Positions 16,630 to 27,930 of a stretch of DNA of 64,000 bases are shown piece by piece. The translations under genes and the position numbers were made by a program. How positions within the stretch are numbered: the stretch's first letter is position 1; every line of letters begins with the position of its first letter. The stretch comes from Stappia sp. ES.058 (lineage in GTDB: Bacteria > Pseudomonadota > Alphaproteobacteria > Rhizobiales > Stappiaceae). The notes below the pieces were generated by a model. The model had not been told where the DNA came from. It did not search any database and saw only the letters and a list, made by a program, of their open reading frames with translations. The DNA is taken from assembly GCF_900105595.1 (NCBI RefSeq), contig NZ_LT629784.1, positions 2,604,001 to 2,668,000 of the forward strand, given 5' to 3'.

Positions 16630-16711
16630 TACGAGCTGTTTGGGAATTCGGACCTAACGTGACCCTGCAACGAGAACCCGTTGTGAAGATCCGCACCAGA
16701 AAGGTACGACA

Positions 16712-19876: not shown

Positions 19877-19954
19877 GGATAATTAAGGCACCTTCGTTGA
19901 AAGCCTCAGGACGAGGCGGTCCCCGCAACCGGGACTAGGCGAAAGGATTTCACC

Positions 19955-21396: not shown

Positions 21397-21429
21397 GAGG
21401 CGGCGGGTCATCCCGCCGCCTCTTGCTTT
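21397..21429 (+). terminator. Terminator of flagellin 3
   Basis: A perfect stem GAGGCGGCGGG / CCCGCCGCCTC with a TCAT loop is followed by TTGCTTT, 54 bases after the stop. Confidence 0.8.
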
Positions 21430-21673
21430 GACGCCCCGAAAGCGCCGGGCAACGCGCTGCTCACGCGCATTCCGGTGGCGGGCGCTCCTTCAGCGCCGGA
21501 ACGCCCGGCGGCCGCGCCTGGCGCGTGAAATGACTTCAGGATTTGTTTACTCTAATACATTGAAACACAAACAAATACGGCAATTACTACCCGGCAATTT
21601 TTTCCGATCCAAAGCTCTTCTTTTGGAGCACTTATTTGTTGCTTGAATCAACCCGTTGTGCGATTCTGTGATC
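21430..21673 (+). other. Non-coding leader between flagellin 3 and flbT
   Basis: No gene is supported here. The right half (21,540-21,660) is clearly AT-richer than its surroundings and probably contains the flbT-flaF promoter and 5' untranslated region. I cannot identify a sigma-54 or CtrA consensus in it. Confidence 0.5.
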
Positions 21674-22168
21674 ATGGCACTCAAGATCGAATTACGCCCC
21701 CGCGAAAGATTTATCGTCGGCTCCACGGTCATCACCAATGGAGATCACCGAACGCATATCTTTATCGAGGGCAATGAACCGATCCTGCGTGAAAAGGACA
21801 TCTATACCGCACAGACAGCGAACACGCCGGCGAAGCGGATCTACCTGGCCGTCCAGCTCATGTACCTCAACCAGGACATCGAACGGCACAAGAAGATCTA
21901 TTTCGAACTCATCCAGGATCTGGTTCAAGCCGCGCCGAGCACGATGGAACTGATCGACGCGGTGAACAATGAGATCTTAACCGGCTCGCTCTACGCTGCC
22001 CTCAGACGGGTTCGAAAATTGGTCGATTACGAACGGGAACTGATCGAACATGTACAATCAGGCCACAGCAGCTTATCAGCAGACGGCGCAAACGGCCGTG
22101 AGTCCGAGGGAACTGGAAGCGACCCTCTTGATGAAGGCGGCCGCGCGCCTGCAAGCGGTCAAGGATGA
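21674..22168 (+). CDS. flbT: FlbT, post-transcriptional regulator of flagellin
   Basis: A 164-residue protein starting MALKIELRPRERFIVGSTVI. It has the conserved blocks IFIEGNEPILREKDIYT, ANTPAKRIYLAVQLMYL and the helical C-terminal part ending KLVDYERELIEHVQSG. In Caulobacter FlbT binds the flagellin mRNA leader and promotes its decay until the hook is complete. In rhizobia it can act as a positive regulator. The last 39 or so codons lie out of frame inside the flaF gene (119-base overlap) and give a low-complexity Ser/Gly/Glu tail. FlbT relatives usually end near residue 130-150. Confidence 0.93.
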   Translation: MALKIELRPRERFIVGSTVITNGDHRTHIFIEGNEPILREKDIYTAQTANTPAKRIYLAVQLMYLNQDIERHKKIYFELIQDLVQAAPSTMELIDAVNNEILTGSLYAALRRVRKLVDYERELIEHVQSGHSSLSADGANGRESEGTGSDPLDEGGRAPASGQG

Positions 22169-22418
22169 CTGGGACACCGGCGGTCCCGTCACGCTCGACG
22201 AAGCCCTGACCTACAATCGCCGTCTTTGGACGATCCTGGCGACCTCCGTGACGAGCAACGATAACCCGCTTCCCCCCGAGGTGAAGCAGAATCTCGGCTC
22301 TCTGGGCGCCTTCATCCTGAAGCACACATTCGATATCATGGCCGAGCCAAACCCGGAGCGCCTGACGACGCTGATCCAGATCAATCGCAATATCGCCATG
22401 GGCCTGCGCGGCAACTGA
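22050..22418 (+). CDS. flaF: FlaF, flagellin synthesis regulator
   Basis: A 122-residue protein beginning MYNQATAAYQQTAQTAVSPR, with the conserved ELEATLLMKAAARLQ, RRLWTILATSVTSNDNPLP and NLGSLGAFILKHTFDIM. In Caulobacter FlaF is needed for flagellin secretion and counterbalances FlbT. Family length is normal (about 115-125). The ATG lies 119 bases before the end of flbT in another frame. No good ribosome site precedes it, which fits translational coupling to flbT. Confidence 0.93.
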   Translation: MYNQATAAYQQTAQTAVSPRELEATLLMKAAARLQAVKDDWDTGGPVTLDEALTYNRRLWTILATSVTSNDNPLPPEVKQNLGSLGAFILKHTFDIMAEPNPERLTTLIQINRNIAMGLRGN

Positions 22419-22473
22419 CCGCACCGCAACCGGACAGCGCCCGTTCCGCATCCGCTCGCCCGGAATGCTCTTC

Positions 22474-22499
22474 AAACGCCGGCCCCGTGGCCGGCGTTT
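22474..22499 (+). terminator. Hairpin after flaF, likely terminator
   Basis: A perfect 11-base-pair stem AAACGCCGGCC / GGCCGGCGTTT has a 4-base loop and lies 56 bases after the flaF stop. The following T-run is only the three T of the stem itself, so termination efficiency is uncertain. Confidence 0.5.
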
Positions 22500-22574
22500 C
22501 CGCGTTTGGCGACGGAGCCCCGGCAAGAGAGGATCGACCGACGACGGCCGGGGCAAAAAGGCAGGCTCAGGACA

Positions 22575-22610
22575 CAAAAAAGGGAACCGGCAGGCTCAAC
22601 GCCGGTTCCC
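22575..22610 (-). terminator. Bidirectional terminator, mainly for flgEKL
   Basis: A perfect 10-base-pair stem GGGAACCGGC / GCCGGTTCCC is preceded on the plus strand by six A, giving a strong U-run on a minus-strand transcript. It has only TTATT on the plus side. It would end a flgE-flgK-flgL transcript after the hairpin array. Confidence 0.7.
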
Positions 22611-22619
22611 TTATTGCTT

Positions 22620-22887
22620 GCGCCTTCTGCGCGATCAGGAACGCCTTCTGCGTCCGTATCCGGTCTCTACCCGCGCCTTCTGCACGTTCTCAGGCGCCTT
22701 CTGCGCCGGTCCCCGGTTCGTATCCTTGCGCCTTCTGCGCCCTCAAAGGCACCTTCTGTGCCCGGTCACCGGTCTGCGTATGCGCCTTCTGCGCGCTCCG
22801 GAGCGCCTTCTGCCCTCCGTTCCGGTGCATGTCTTCGCGCCTTCTGCGCGCTCAAGGACGCCTTCTGCGTCCGGCCTCCACGGAGCC
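22620..22887. repeat. Five-unit array of paired small hairpins with constant loop
   Basis: Five tandem units start at 22620, 22673, 22728, 22782 and 22837 (spacing 53, 55, 54, 55). Each has two copies of a hairpin with loop CTTCT (AGAAG on the minus strand), always 21 bases apart. The first hairpin is GCGC-CTTCT-GCGC. The second has a variable stem: ACGC/GCGT, GGCGC/GCGCC, GGCAC/GTGCC, a mismatched GGAGCGC/GCCCTCC, and GGACGC/GCGTCC. Stem changes are largely compensated while the loop stays fixed. Unit lengths are not multiples of three, so it is not a coding repeat. It lies 32 bases after the flgL stop on the minus strand and before a minus-strand terminator, so it would sit in the flgEKL 3' untranslated region. 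Confidence 0.85.
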
Positions 22888-22918
22888 GCCTTCCGGCGGC
22901 GAGAAACGGTGACGTCCC

Positions 22919-24457
22919 TCAGAGATAATTCGACAGCGAGAGGTTCAATGTGATGCTCGTTGCCTGATAGCTGACCTCAAGCGCCGTGCGCAAAGACAGG
23001 AGCTTGGTCGCCACCTCTTCCTTGTTGATCCCTTCGATCTCGTCGATGACCGACTTGACCGACCCTTCCGCCACTCTGTGGCGCGTTTCCGCGTCCCGCA
23101 CGGTACGGTGCACGGCGGAGAATTCCATGTGGTTGCGGCGGATGCCGGAGGCCTCCGATCCAGGCGGCGTCAACCCGTCGTAGGAGCGTTGGGCCATCGC
23201 TTCGTAGAATTTCTGGTTGTCCGGCTGTGCGGAGGAGAAGTCGGCGACCGCAAAACCGGCAAGCGCCTGCACCACCTCACGATACCCCGCCTCATTCGCC
23301 CGGGCGCCGTAGTTGACCGTCAGGTTCTCGTCGACCGTCGCCCGGCTGTCCTTGCGCGGATCGCCGGAGGAATTGTCACCCGTGTACCAGGAAACGGTGT
23401 CGGCCGTGCCGTCCCGCAGGCTCGTGGCCGTCGTGAAATCGACCGGAGGACCGGCGCTCGGCACCACGCGCGCAAGCGGCTGATAGCCGGGCGGAACAGG
23501 CGACTTCGGTGCCGTGTCGAAAAAGGCTTCGGTGGCCCGCACAGTCGACGCGGCCTTCAACTCGGTGTTCGCCTCGCGCTGCAGGGCGCTGTCGAGCGCG
23601 TCCTGGAAGAACTGGGCCGTATCGGCGGGAGTCGCGCCGCGCTGAAAGGTGAACTCGGGATCGTTCGCACCGCCGAAGACACCGAGCTCGACTTCGCTTG
23701 TGGAGCCATCGGGAAGCGAGAAGAAAACGCGGATACTCTCGCCCGGCTGCGGCTGTCCAGTGAAGTCGATGTCGAGCGTCGCCGGCGGACCTGCGGTCTG
23801 CGTGACAGACACATTGCTTGCCCCCGACGCGACGCTGTCGATCTTGAACCCGAACGGATGAACCCCGTCTTCCGCGATGCTCACCTGGGTCCCGACTCGC
23901 CCCGTCGTCAGCCGGCCGTTGTTGAGCGCACCGATATCGGCCTGATTGTATTCGTCGACCACGGTCTTGAGGCCGGCATAGTTGCCGTCGCCATTCATCA
24001 CGTAGTCGAGGCTCTGGACCGGGAGCGTGTCGGCCGTCTTGCCGGAATAGATGTATCGCCCGCCCACATCGGTGTTCAACTGCGACATGAACTCGCGCAG
24101 CGAGATTTCCGTCGACGTCTGCGTTGAGGTCCGTCCGTTGCTGAACAATTCGAAATTGTTGCGATCCGTGGCGGCTTTCGCCTCGATGCGGATATCCTCG
24201 AGCCGCTCGCTGGTCTGGTCCAGGGTGGCCAGCCGCAGATCGGCGATCTGGATCGTTTGCTTGAAGACGCCGATTTCGGAAAGCTGCTGCTTCATCGAGA
24301 GATCGAGCACACGCTCCGAACCGAGACCGCCATAGGTCTCCGACTTCTGGTTGGTACCGAGCTGGCGCTGAAGGTCGTTCATCTGATTGCGCAGATTGGT
24401 CAGGTAGGTGACCTGGCTGGGAGCCGAAAATCCGCCGCCGTAGGGATTGATCGCCAT
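22919..24457 (-). CDS. flgL: FlgL, hook-filament junction protein
   Basis: A 512-residue protein, longer than enterobacterial FlgL (about 320). The flagellin-like N-terminal helix region (SQVTYLTNLRNQMNDLQRQL, SETYGGLGSERVLDLSM) and C-terminal region (ALEVSYQATSITLNLSLSNY) frame an enlarged central domain. It joins FlgK to the filament. The start lies nine bases beyond the flgK stop, with GGAG upstream. It is last in flgE-flgK-flgL. Its product is a probable client of the FlgN-like chaperone. Confidence 0.92.
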   Translation of the reverse strand: MAINPYGGGFSAPSQVTYLTNLRNQMNDLQRQLGTNQKSETYGGLGSERVLDLSMKQQLSEIGVFKQTIQIADLRLATLDQTSERLEDIRIEAKAATDRNNFELFSNGRTSTQTSTEISLREFMSQLNTDVGGRYIYSGKTADTLPVQSLDYVMNGDGNYAGLKTVVDEYNQADIGALNNGRLTTGRVGTQVSIAEDGVHPFGFKIDSVASGASNVSVTQTAGPPATLDIDFTGQPQPGESIRVFFSLPDGSTSEVELGVFGGANDPEFTFQRGATPADTAQFFQDALDSALQREANTELKAASTVRATEAFFDTAPKSPVPPGYQPLARVVPSAGPPVDFTTATSLRDGTADTVSWYTGDNSSGDPRKDSRATVDENLTVNYGARANEAGYREVVQALAGFAVADFSSAQPDNQKFYEAMAQRSYDGLTPPGSEASGIRRNHMEFSAVHRTVRDAETRHRVAEGSVKSVIDEIEGINKEEVATKLLSLRTALEVSYQATSITLNLSLSNYL

Positions 24458-24466
24458 TTCTTGTCA

Positions 24467-26350
24467 CTAGCTCCGCATCAAGATGTCGTAGAGTTCGCGC
24501 ACCACCTGCATCACCCTTGCATTCGCCGCATAGGCATTTTGAAGCTGCACCAGTTGGGCAAGTTCCTGATCGACACTGACCTTTGAGGAATCGTCGAGCC
24601 GGGACTTGAGGTTGGCCGTTACGACCTCCTGCCCCGTAACCGTCGCCTTGGCTTGCGCCGAGCGTCCGCTCTGGTGGGAAACCGCTGCCGTCACAAAGTC
24701 ATTGATGGATCCCTCGAACACCGAGCTGGATCCGCCGATGCGCGTCGAGGGCGTGAAGGTCGACTTGGTCAGCGTCAGCTTATCGAGTATCGCCTGCGGG
24801 CGCGTCGCATCGCCCGTGGCGACACCCGGCGCGTATTCCACCAGCAGGGACGGATCATTGACGAAGGTCGATCCGACACGAATGCGCGAGGCAAACCCGG
24901 TAATGTTCGGCCGCCCGTCCGCCATCCCGGTGAAGGTCTTGTCGCCGTCGTCGACGAAAAGCGCAAAGGCGTCGCCCTGCGCGGAGGGACCCGCAACGGT
25001 CTCGTTTGCCTGTGCGGTCTCGATCCGCAGGCTGGCAGGCGCGGTGCTTTCAAGCCGCAGCGTCGAACCGCCGGGGTTCGCCGCCGAAAACACGCCGGCG
25101 CCAACGCGCGCATCGCCATCGAGCGCACTCTGGATCCCGGCCGCGATCGTCGTGTAGTTGCCGCTGGAAAAATCCACCGACAAAAAGATGTTGTCGGGAT
25201 CGGTCGTCGCCGTCAGCGCCGGCGGTTCCGCCCCGTCGGAACGATAGATCGTGACCGACTTGCTCAGCCCGGTGCCGAGATCCTTGTAGTCGAAGGACAC
25301 GCTGTCGCCCGGCTGAAGATTGGCGAGATCCAGCTCGTAGCCGGTCTGGGTGCCCGACGCCGGATATGCCGTTCCCGGTTCCACATGAGTGGAAAACGCG
25401 CGCGACAACGATGCCGCCAGTTCATCGAGCTGCGTCTGCGCATCGGTCAGGGCCCCGTCGCGCATGTTGACCAGGCTTGCCAGAGACCCGCTGCGCAGGG
25501 TGCGCGTCGACAGCAGGTCGATCTGGCTGCCCTCGGAGTTTTCCAGGGTCAGCGTGCCCACACGCCGCTTGGCCGGATCGATGTTGTAGAGCGCATCGGC
25601 GTTGATGTTGCCGCGCCCGTCGAACTTGAGCTTCATCACATCGACGTCATAGAGCATCGTGCCGCCGGAGGTGTGGACGCGCACGCCCCCCTGCTCCGTC
25701 GGCTTGACGTCGATGTCGATGTAGCCGGACAGTTCTTCCAGCAGCATGTCGCGCTGGTCCATCAGCCCGACCGGCTTGTCGCCGTCCTGGCTCGCCCCGA
25801 TCACCTGCCGGTCGATTGCCTTGATGTCCGCCAGAAGGTCGTTGACCCGGTCGACCTGTTCGCCGATCTGGTACTCGACCTCCTGCCGCATGCCCTGGAT
25901 GTCTTCCGACATGGCGTTGATCTTGCCGACCAGCGCCTCGGCATTGCGCATCACCTCGAGCCGGTTTGTGTAGTCCTCGGGGCCGGAGACGAGGTTCGAC
26001 ATCGACGAAACGAAGGAATTGACCGTGTTGGGCAGCGACCCCGCGTCCTGGATCGTTCCAAACAGCGTATCGAGGCGCGCGGTGTACTGCTGGGCAACGC
26101 TTGCGTAGTTCTGCTCGGCCAGAGAGGTCCGGTACTGCCCCTGAACCGCCGTGTCGAGATAGCGGCGCATGCTGTCCGCCTCGACACCGGTGACGATGCC
26201 GTTGCCATCATAGGTAACGGACGCGGAGACGGACTTTCGCGTGTAGCCGACCGTGTCGGCATTGGCGATATTCGTCGCCGTCACATCGAGCTGGCGCTGG
26301 TTGAAACCCAGTCCGATCAATGCGGTATTGAGAGCGCTGCTCAGTCCCAT
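24467..26350 (-). CDS. flgK: FlgK, hook-associated protein 1
   Basis: A 627-residue protein. The rod/hook-type N-terminus SSALNTALIGLGFNQRQLDV is followed by TATNIANADTVGYTRKSVSA, and the C-terminus LQNAYAANARVMQVVRELYD-ILMRS is typical. FlgK forms the first junction layer on the hook. The region at about residues 330-500 is a surface-exposed variable domain. The length is within the alphaproteobacterial range. It is the middle gene of flgE-flgK-flgL, 78 bases after flgE and 9 before flgL. Confidence 0.95.
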   Translation of the reverse strand: MGLSSALNTALIGLGFNQRQLDVTATNIANADTVGYTRKSVSASVTYDGNGIVTGVEADSMRRYLDTAVQGQYRTSLAEQNYASVAQQYTARLDTLFGTIQDAGSLPNTVNSFVSSMSNLVSGPEDYTNRLEVMRNAEALVGKINAMSEDIQGMRQEVEYQIGEQVDRVNDLLADIKAIDRQVIGASQDGDKPVGLMDQRDMLLEELSGYIDIDVKPTEQGGVRVHTSGGTMLYDVDVMKLKFDGRGNINADALYNIDPAKRRVGTLTLENSEGSQIDLLSTRTLRSGSLASLVNMRDGALTDAQTQLDELAASLSRAFSTHVEPGTAYPASGTQTGYELDLANLQPGDSVSFDYKDLGTGLSKSVTIYRSDGAEPPALTATTDPDNIFLSVDFSSGNYTTIAAGIQSALDGDARVGAGVFSAANPGGSTLRLESTAPASLRIETAQANETVAGPSAQGDAFALFVDDGDKTFTGMADGRPNITGFASRIRVGSTFVNDPSLLVEYAPGVATGDATRPQAILDKLTLTKSTFTPSTRIGGSSSVFEGSINDFVTAAVSHQSGRSAQAKATVTGQEVVTANLKSRLDDSSKVSVDQELAQLVQLQNAYAANARVMQVVRELYDILMRS

Positions 26351-26428: not shown

Positions 26429-27844
26429 CTACCGGATCATGTTGATGGCTTCCTGCAGCATCTGGTCGCCCGAGGAGACAATCCGTGTATTGGCGGAATA
26501 GGCCTGCTGGGTGACGATCAGCTTGGAGAATTCGTCCGCGATATCGGTGTTCGACGATTCCAGCCGCTTGCCGACGATCCGCCCCTGTGCGCCGGCGATC
26601 GGCTCACCCGATTCCGGCGTGACCTCGAAGGCACCGCCGTCAACGCGCTCAAGCCACGCCTCGCCGGAGAAGGACACCAGCGAGATTTCGTGCAGCTCGC
26701 GGGTCCGGCCGTTGGAGTAGGAGGCGACGAGACGGCCGGCTTCCGAAATCGAGATGCCGGCAAGGTCTCCGGACGGATACCCGTTCTGCGTCAGCTTGGA
26801 GATCTTGGCGCTGCCGTTGGAATCGGAAAACTGCGTCAGCGCGCCGGTGCCGAAATCGAGCGCCATGTCGCCAACGACTTCGCCATCGACGGAAAGGCCG
26901 GTGATCGACATCGAGTCATTGGCGGGAACCAGCATCTGTCCGCCGTTACCGGCACTGGAATCGAACTGCGCGTCCGACACCTTGCTCCACTTCGGGTTGG
27001 CGCCCGTGGCTGCGGAATCCGACAGGTAGTAGAGCGACCAGGTGTCCGGCTGCGAACCGTCGTCCTCGAAGGTCTTGGCCCAGCGCATCTGCACGTTCAC
27101 GGGCGTGCCGCTCGAGTTGTATACGGTGATCGCCTCGCCGGCGATGGAGGTGTTGAGGAAGGCCACCTCGTCGTCGGCATTGATGGCGTCGACGCCAACG
27201 GTCTGGCCGACGGCGGCGGCGTCGGGCACGGCGCCGGTCGAGGCCTTGGTCAGGGTCCCATCGAGCAACTCGCTGCCGCCGGCAAGCTGCGTGCTCGTCT
27301 GCGGGGTCGTCGGCAGGTTGCCTTCGTAGTTGATCCGGTCCGTGACCACGGCCGGGATCACGGAATTGTCGATGGTGATGATGGAAGGGACCGAACCGGA
27401 CACGTTCTTGGTGACCGGATCGATCGGCTGGCCCATCAGGTAGTAGCCGGCGCCATTGACCAGGCGTCCTTCCTTGTCGACCTCAAAATCACCGCGACGG
27501 GTGTAGAGATCGTTGCCGGAGAAAATCGTCCGGCCGTCGACCTCGCCGGCCTTGCCCTGAACGACGAAATAGCCGCTTCCGTTGATCCCCATGTAGGTGT
27601 CGACCTGGCTCTGCTGCAGATCACCCTGCAGCCCGTTGGTCGCACGGGAGTTGGCGGACACCGTGCCGGCGATCTGGCCGGGCTGCGCGCCCTTGCCGCC
27701 GCCGACAAGGTCGGAAAACGACGTATCGAGCCGCTTGTAGCCAACCGTCGCCGCGTTGGCGATGTTGCCAGAGATATTCTCCAGCGCATAAGCCTGCGCG
27801 GAAAGGCCGGAGACGGCCGCGTTCAAAGCACCAAAAACACCCAT
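26429..27844 (-). CDS. flgE: FlgE, flagellar hook protein
   Basis: A 471-residue hook protein beginning MGVFGALNAAVSGLSAQAYA, with ENISGNIANAATVGYKRLD as the rod/hook signature. The C-terminus KLIVTQQAYSANTRIVSSGD-QMLQEAINMIR is characteristic. The start at 27844 is chosen for the GGAGG site and the family N-terminus; the in-frame extension to 27922 covers the promoter. A sigma-54 promoter lies about 70 bases upstream. It heads flgE-flgK-flgL and is divergent from the MoxR gene. Confidence 0.96.
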   Translation of the reverse strand: MGVFGALNAAVSGLSAQAYALENISGNIANAATVGYKRLDTSFSDLVGGGKGAQPGQIAGTVSANSRATNGLQGDLQQSQVDTYMGINGSGYFVVQGKAGEVDGRTIFSGNDLYTRRGDFEVDKEGRLVNGAGYYLMGQPIDPVTKNVSGSVPSIITIDNSVIPAVVTDRINYEGNLPTTPQTSTQLAGGSELLDGTLTKASTGAVPDAAAVGQTVGVDAINADDEVAFLNTSIAGEAITVYNSSGTPVNVQMRWAKTFEDDGSQPDTWSLYYLSDSAATGANPKWSKVSDAQFDSSAGNGGQMLVPANDSMSITGLSVDGEVVGDMALDFGTGALTQFSDSNGSAKISKLTQNGYPSGDLAGISISEAGRLVASYSNGRTRELHEISLVSFSGEAWLERVDGGAFEVTPESGEPIAGAQGRIVGKRLESSNTDIADEFSKLIVTQQAYSANTRIVSSGDQMLQEAINMIR

Positions 27845-27912
27845 GTGATCCTCCAGGACGGAAAGGACGGACTTTCCGGCGCCGCTGGGCACGCCGGTCT
27901 CGATCCTGGGGT

Positions 27913-27930
27913 TGGCAAACAATGTGCCAG
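27913..27930 (-). promoter_or_regulatory. Sigma-54 promoter of flgEKL
   Basis: On the minus strand, CTGGCACATTGTTTGCCAAC has GG, ten bases, then GC (plus-strand positions 27927-27928 and 27915-27916), with the TGGCAC -24 element. It lies about 70 bases upstream of flgE. The rest of the 294-base gap to the MoxR gene holds its promoter; I see no clear site in it. Confidence 0.8.

Follow-up and report, generated by a model that had tools for sequence, protein, structure and literature searches.

What are ten copies of one small hairpin doing behind a flagellar hook gene? They lie in Stappia sp. ES.058, in a stretch of 64,000 nucleotides (contig NZ_LT629784.1, positions 2,604,001 to 2,668,000) that we call the window, and all ten have the loop AGAAG on the minus strand, between the stop codon of a flgL-type gene (22919) and a terminator at 22612-22580. 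They thus form an array in the flgL 3' untranslated region (UTR). Hairpins of the same loop class are found in the leaders of flagellin mRNAs, and sequence comparison gives good support for an element common to the array and those leaders. The explanation that we favour, at about an even chance, is that the array is a decoy, placed in the hook-operon 3' UTR, for a regulator of flagellin leaders, most probably FlbT. The elements of the array are as follows.

22620..22872, minus strand: array of ten AGAAG-loop hairpins, flgL 3' UTR
22856..22872, minus strand: hairpin 1, 6 base pairs (bp), ggacgc-AGAAG-gcgtcc; matched by the leader model described below at 15.6 bits
22836..22850, minus strand: hairpin 2, 5 bp; leader-model match
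22800..22818, minus strand: hairpin 3, third pair a G.G mismatch
22782..22794, minus strand: hairpin 4, 4 bp
22747..22763, minus strand: hairpin 5, 6 bp, gggcac-AGAAG-gtgcct; leader-model match
22728..22740, minus strand: hairpin 6, 4 bp
22693..22707, minus strand: hairpin 7, 5 bp; leader-model match
22672..22686, minus strand: hairpin 8, 5 bp with G-U pair(s); leader-model match
22639..22655, minus strand: hairpin 9, 6 bp with a G-U pair; leader-model match
22620..22632, minus strand: hairpin 10, 4 bp
22580..22612, minus strand: strong intrinsic terminator-like site 3' of the array, closing the flgL transcript and present in four array-bearing relatives too

The loops start at 22866, 22845, 22811, 22790, 22757, 22736, 22702, 22681, 22649 and 22628, and the hairpins form five pairs with a within-pair distance of exactly 21 bases and unit spacings of 55, 54, 55 and 53. 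An earlier note, made from the sequence alone, had described ten hairpins in five such pairs, in units of 53-55 bases, and the coordinates bear this out. It had put the array 32 bases past the flgL stop, and this figure needs correction, as the first stem begins about 46 bases past it. The note also held that in the second hairpin of the units both arms of the stem change together. Stems do differ between units with both arms changed, and nine of the ten stems are sound, the odd one being hairpin 3 with its G.G pair. GCCTTCTGC occurs nine times in the window against 0.98 expected, all nine within the array, and a pair search of the 4.63 Mb genome found no second array of such hairpin pairs. 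Both strands of the array fold better than 100 dinucleotide shuffles, with z of -4.46 for the minus strand and -4.19 for the plus strand. In four genomes the means of local pairing were 0.83, 0.81, 0.76 and 0.88 on the sense strand and 0.58, 0.70, 0.75 and 0.77 on the antisense strand, and core pairs 1-4 of the array have five G-U cells on the sense strand against no A-C cells, from few independent events. These results support the earlier note in its view of a minus-strand element that would work as RNA and has the look of a multivalent binding site. We found no sigma-70-like promoter in 21400-23400.

With regard to protein coding, the earlier note had argued from the unit spacing that it does not explain the array, and we agree: unit lengths of 53-55 and gaps of one or two bases between species speak against a conserved frame, though no test of substitutions was run. 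On the antisense strand of four genomes all three frames are nearly stop-free (103-116 of 115-117 codons), which is not so on the flgL-sense strand; the composition is therefore unusual.

For relatives, 61 genomes were searched for flgL, giving 30 loci whose 3' flanks were scanned for arrays. Arrays are present at five of the 30, all within the genus, with ten hairpins in G000, G080, G077 and G085 and four in G083. Three close relatives thus share the array and its position with our genome, and a fourth has a shorter form. In a flgL tree the five carriers are one clade (support 0.67), with support of 1.0 for the four ten-hairpin genomes, and on this tree the array is a clade-restricted gain.

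The loop was invariant according to the earlier note, and within this genome that stands (10/10 AGAAG). Across five species, with 44 hairpins, positions 1, 2 and 4 are fixed as A, G and A, but position 3 is A in 41 and G in 3, and position 5 is G in 35, T in 6, C in 2 and A in 1. The consensus is A-G-R-A-N, all 44 having A, G and A at positions 1, 2 and 4 and R (A or G) at 3. In the alignment of the four ten-hairpin genomes 44 of 50 loop columns are invariant, the changes being confined to positions 3 and 5, as are 76 of 80 in stem cores and 75 of 132 in spacers. On the question raised in the earlier note, whether loops vary as much as stems, it is to be noted that loops and stem cores are both far more conserved than the spacers.

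This pattern bears on two other explanations. The first is that a structured 3' UTR merely shields the mRNA from 3' exonucleases, with the identity of the loops a legacy of tandem duplication. The tandem units and stable folding would fit, but the spacers have drifted while loops and stem cores were retained, and the loop matches that of an unrelated set of leaders, so that we think this improbable. The second, which we rate lower still, as very improbable, is that these are neutral DNA repeats whose arms were matched by quasi-palindrome correction, or that they are sites for a DNA-binding protein. Pairs 21 bases apart would be two helical turns, the array is limited to one clade, and the antisense composition just described is of the same tendency. 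Against this are the contrast of loops and stems with spacers, the sense-strand match to flagellin leaders, and the unit-to-unit differences in stems, which a sequence-specific DNA protein would not be expected to accept. The DNA-level role that the earlier note had allowed for is disfavoured by the last two of these.

The flagellin leaders were taken from 38 of the 53 genomes in which flagellin was matched, in regions that we chose; the 106 starts gave 105 leaders once duplicates and short leaders had been set aside. A hairpin was counted if it had a loop of AGRA plus 0-2 bases (4-6 in all) and a stem of at least 4 pairs, at -30 to -56. Such AGRA hairpins are present in 76 of the 105 leaders and in 35 of the 38 genomes, about 40 bases upstream of the start codon, as against a mean of 2.4 and a maximum of 7 in 200 dinucleotide shuffles, and 2/105 on the antisense strand. 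With the strict criterion of a pentaloop and a stem of at least 5 pairs the figures are 50/105 and 0.32 in shuffles, the 50 being on 18 different stems, and apart from the AGRA type each pentaloop then occurs twice at most. The variable loop positions of the array, 3 and 5, are also those of the leaders. The window has three such leaders.

19903..19917, plus strand: third flagellin gene (ATG 19955), leader hairpin gcctc-AGGAC-gaggc with loop AGGAC; the best model match of the window, 20.4 bits
18267..18279, plus strand: second flagellin gene (ATG 18316), leader hairpin cctc-AGGAC-gagg with loop AGGAC; model match
16666..16685, plus strand: first flagellin gene (ATG 16712), leader hairpin with hexaloop AGAACC and cgttg-type stems

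A covariance model was built on 25 leader hairpins, all from genera other than our own and none from the array, and run unfiltered over the 64 kb. All 25 are closed by C-G. Covariation counts on them are biased, because the hairpins were preselected for stems of at least 5 pairs. Of 26 matches in the window, rank 1 goes to the hairpin before the third flagellin gene and ranks 2, 3 and 4 to array hairpins. The array makes up 0.4% of the window and has six of the 26 matches, all six on its sense strand. When 13 loci from members of the genus were scanned, 12 of the 13 model matches fell inside arrays.

The Shine-Dalgarno region itself carries AGRA in 94 of the 105 leaders, as expected of a ribosome site. 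As another explanation, the array could be a sponge for a CU-rich small RNA, or for ribosomes by way of its Shine-Dalgarno-like AGRAG. The loops are purine-rich, and AGGA and AGAAG are both Shine-Dalgarno-like. However neither the array nor the leaders constrain position 5, and therefore complementarity past AGRA is not kept, and in the leaders about 30 bases separate the hairpin from the Shine-Dalgarno site downstream of it. We regard an RNA partner of this kind as unlikely, at the level given to the exonuclease shield.

The candidate binding protein is encoded next to the array.

21674..22168, plus strand: flbT, candidate binding protein; Pfam FlbT 1.4e-39, NCBIfam FlbT above cut-off
22050..22418, plus strand: flaF, convergent neighbour; profile matches

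FlbT had been offered as a speculative candidate in the earlier note, and it gains indirect support because flagellin leaders carry the same AGRA-loop hairpin. CsrA was looked for with PF02599 and found in none of 21 genomes of relatives, our own included, and in three of 14 control genomes. In a set of 150 genomes from the phylum, 26 have FlbT and 103 have CsrA, with no genome having both. Homology of FlbT to CsrA finds no clear support in profile or fold comparison, hhalign giving probabilities of 17% and 1%, with CsrA absent among the 50 PDB entries listed. The regulator bound by the array would probably be FlbT.

According to the available parts of two reviews (PMC4347634, PMC3930126), the flagellin 5' UTR of Caulobacter is bound by FlbT, through a mechanism that they regard as unresolved. 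In PMC4347634 the binding sequence is left blank. Reviews describe FlbT as repressing in Caulobacter but activating in Brucella (for Brucella PMC4347634 and PMC8781033, the latter likewise from its available part).

As we see the decoy working, transcription of the late flgE-K-L operon would put ten AGRA-loop hairpins on display, either on the full mRNA or on a 3' fragment freed from that mRNA. These would vie with the flagellin leaders for one RNA-binding regulator, most probably FlbT, and expression of the hook operon may thereby tune translation or stability of flagellin mRNA in trans, in either direction.

The main rival is control in cis: FlbT on the array would act on the flgE-K-L mRNA that carries it, governing its stability or 3' processing, and the array would not work as a decoy towards flagellin. 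It draws on the same hairpin evidence, from leader statistics and model ranks, and on the place of the array between stop codon and terminator; FlbT binding is also said to promote mRNA degradation in Caulobacter (PMC4347634, in the part available). Against it, ten sites would seem to exceed the usual need, and the number of hairpins varies among relatives, 4 against 10. We consider cis control unlikely, though less so than the other alternatives.

Related leader hairpins occur beyond the families near Stappia. In a Caulobacteraceae-like family the 30 best flagellin loci gave 29 leaders, one being dropped for want of a start, and 25 of the 29 have a hairpin with an A-R-A-A loop (shuffles mean 1.5, maximum 7). 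Seven have two hairpins, 16-18 bases apart (0.05 in shuffles), the pairs of the array being 21 apart. A further sample of the wider class comprised 54 leaders from 27 genomes, grouped by type of FlbT (that of G118 was not read). In the one genome with both FlbT types none of 6 leaders has the hairpin.

Several observations weigh against a decoy for FlbT. In that sample the genomes with REKD-like FlbT have the hairpin in only 11 of 35 leaders (14 with a 3-bp GTC/GAC form), those with only the divergent FlbT in 0 of 12, and those without FlbT in 1 of 7. Judged from such leaders, the link of FlbT to the hairpin is real in families near ours and patchy beyond. Nearer to Stappia, 29 of the 105 leaders are without an AGRA hairpin, among them those of a distinct flagellin paralogue whose protein starts MSDIVLSS or similar. 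The array is absent from 9 of 14 genus members and is therefore dispensable. The single model matches of array hairpins are individually non-significant (E of 0.26 to 8.1), and therefore the support from the model rests on rank, place and strand. At leader pairs 2-4 there are 8 G-U and 7 A-C cells, and with no G-U excess wobble counts are therefore no general proof of strand. Finally, the resemblance of AGRA to a Shine-Dalgarno sequence makes a different binder possible.

Some further observations concern the same leaders and proteins. The MSDIVLSS/MPDIVLSS paralogue combines its hairpin-less leader with a GGTGA-type ribosome site (L267, L272-L279, L281, L282). In divergent FlbT LLE.HV replaces LREKDI, and the 12 leaders examined from its six genomes have no AGRA hairpin (L317, L318, L321, L322, L324, L325, L328, L333, L453 and L457). 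The FlbT-less case with a hairpin is G126 (L361, L380), an alphaproteobacterial genome with CsrA, in which ccctgac-AGGAA-gtcgggg at -42 has a CsrA-site-like AGGAA loop where FlbT genomes have AGRA hairpins.

We also considered whether the repeat is dispersed. Across the 14 genus genomes GCGCAGAANGCGC is matched 102 times; arrays account for 25 of these matches, and the other 77 stand against 105 for a reversed control, so there is no genome-wide family. A contig scan for similar arrays gave at least 119 stretches; among the matches listed, six loci have three AGAAN hairpins within 150 bases and by eye resemble repeats in coding sequence. A three-motif pattern matched 189 of 397 genomes of the order, but with stems unfiltered this is uninformative.

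The genes upstream of the array on its strand are as follows, flgL being named for its position after flgK and for FlgL-type models that match below curated cut-offs.

22919..24457, minus strand: flgL-type gene (hook-filament junction), following flgK; FlgL models matched below cut-off
24467..26350, minus strand: flgK
26429..27922, minus strand: open reading frame of flgE, whose real start is probably downstream of 27922

Of known systems, CsrB and CsrC (RsmX/Y/Z) are alike in having many hairpins with one short loop motif, which sequester the translation regulator CsrA. The available part of PMC4347634 gives 18 CsrA sites for CsrB and 9 for CsrC. Our array differs in lying within an mRNA 3' UTR and in genomes where CsrA was not found (the 21 above), and the GGA in the loops of a CsrB-type sponge is not seen in its ten AGAAG loops. 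Titration by an mRNA has a precedent in the leader of a fimbrial mRNA of Salmonella, which is said to titrate CsrA; this too is an untranslated region titrating a regulator of other mRNAs, but the regulator is CsrA, the region is 5' and not 3', and ours has ten tandem sites. In Caulobacter, the control that FlbT exerts on flagellin leaders was reportedly the subject of work by Anderson and Gober in 2000. There the flagellin 5' leaders are likewise the target, and flbT is present here, adjacent to the array; the difference is that the reviews, in their available parts, state no binding sequence and mention no array.

The flg-Rhizobiales RNA (Rfam RF01736) likewise has several hairpins and goes with flagellar genes of related bacteria. 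It gave no gathering-level match on the array, the window or the flagellin leaders (20 flagellin loci), and no Rfam family reached threshold in the window or those loci. Its below-threshold match here is upstream of flgF and has GGGG/GGGA loops. That match, at 2581-2681 on the plus strand with 29.8 bits (gathering 55), lies upstream of flgF, overlaps its start and has repeated TCTGGGGAGA-like hairpins; in the 24 genomes searched RF01736 was below threshold in four others and above it in one. Neither hairpin nor array was found described in the literature searched, most subscription journals lying outside that search.

The reviews, in their available parts, treat as unsolved both the recognition of flagellin mRNA by FlbT and the coupling of hook completion to flagellin synthesis in Alphaproteobacteria. 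A defined, conserved hairpin offers a testable RNA code, and the natural ten-fold array could serve as a ready ligand in vitro and decoy in vivo. We suggest, with somewhat less than even confidence, that AGRA hairpins are the FlbT recognition element across much of Alphaproteobacteria, and that one Stappia clade evolved a CsrB-like sponge for FlbT, linking hook expression to flagellin translation without CsrA. If true, the mRNA of structural genes would here carry an RNA that titrates a regulatory protein, and this protein would not be CsrA.
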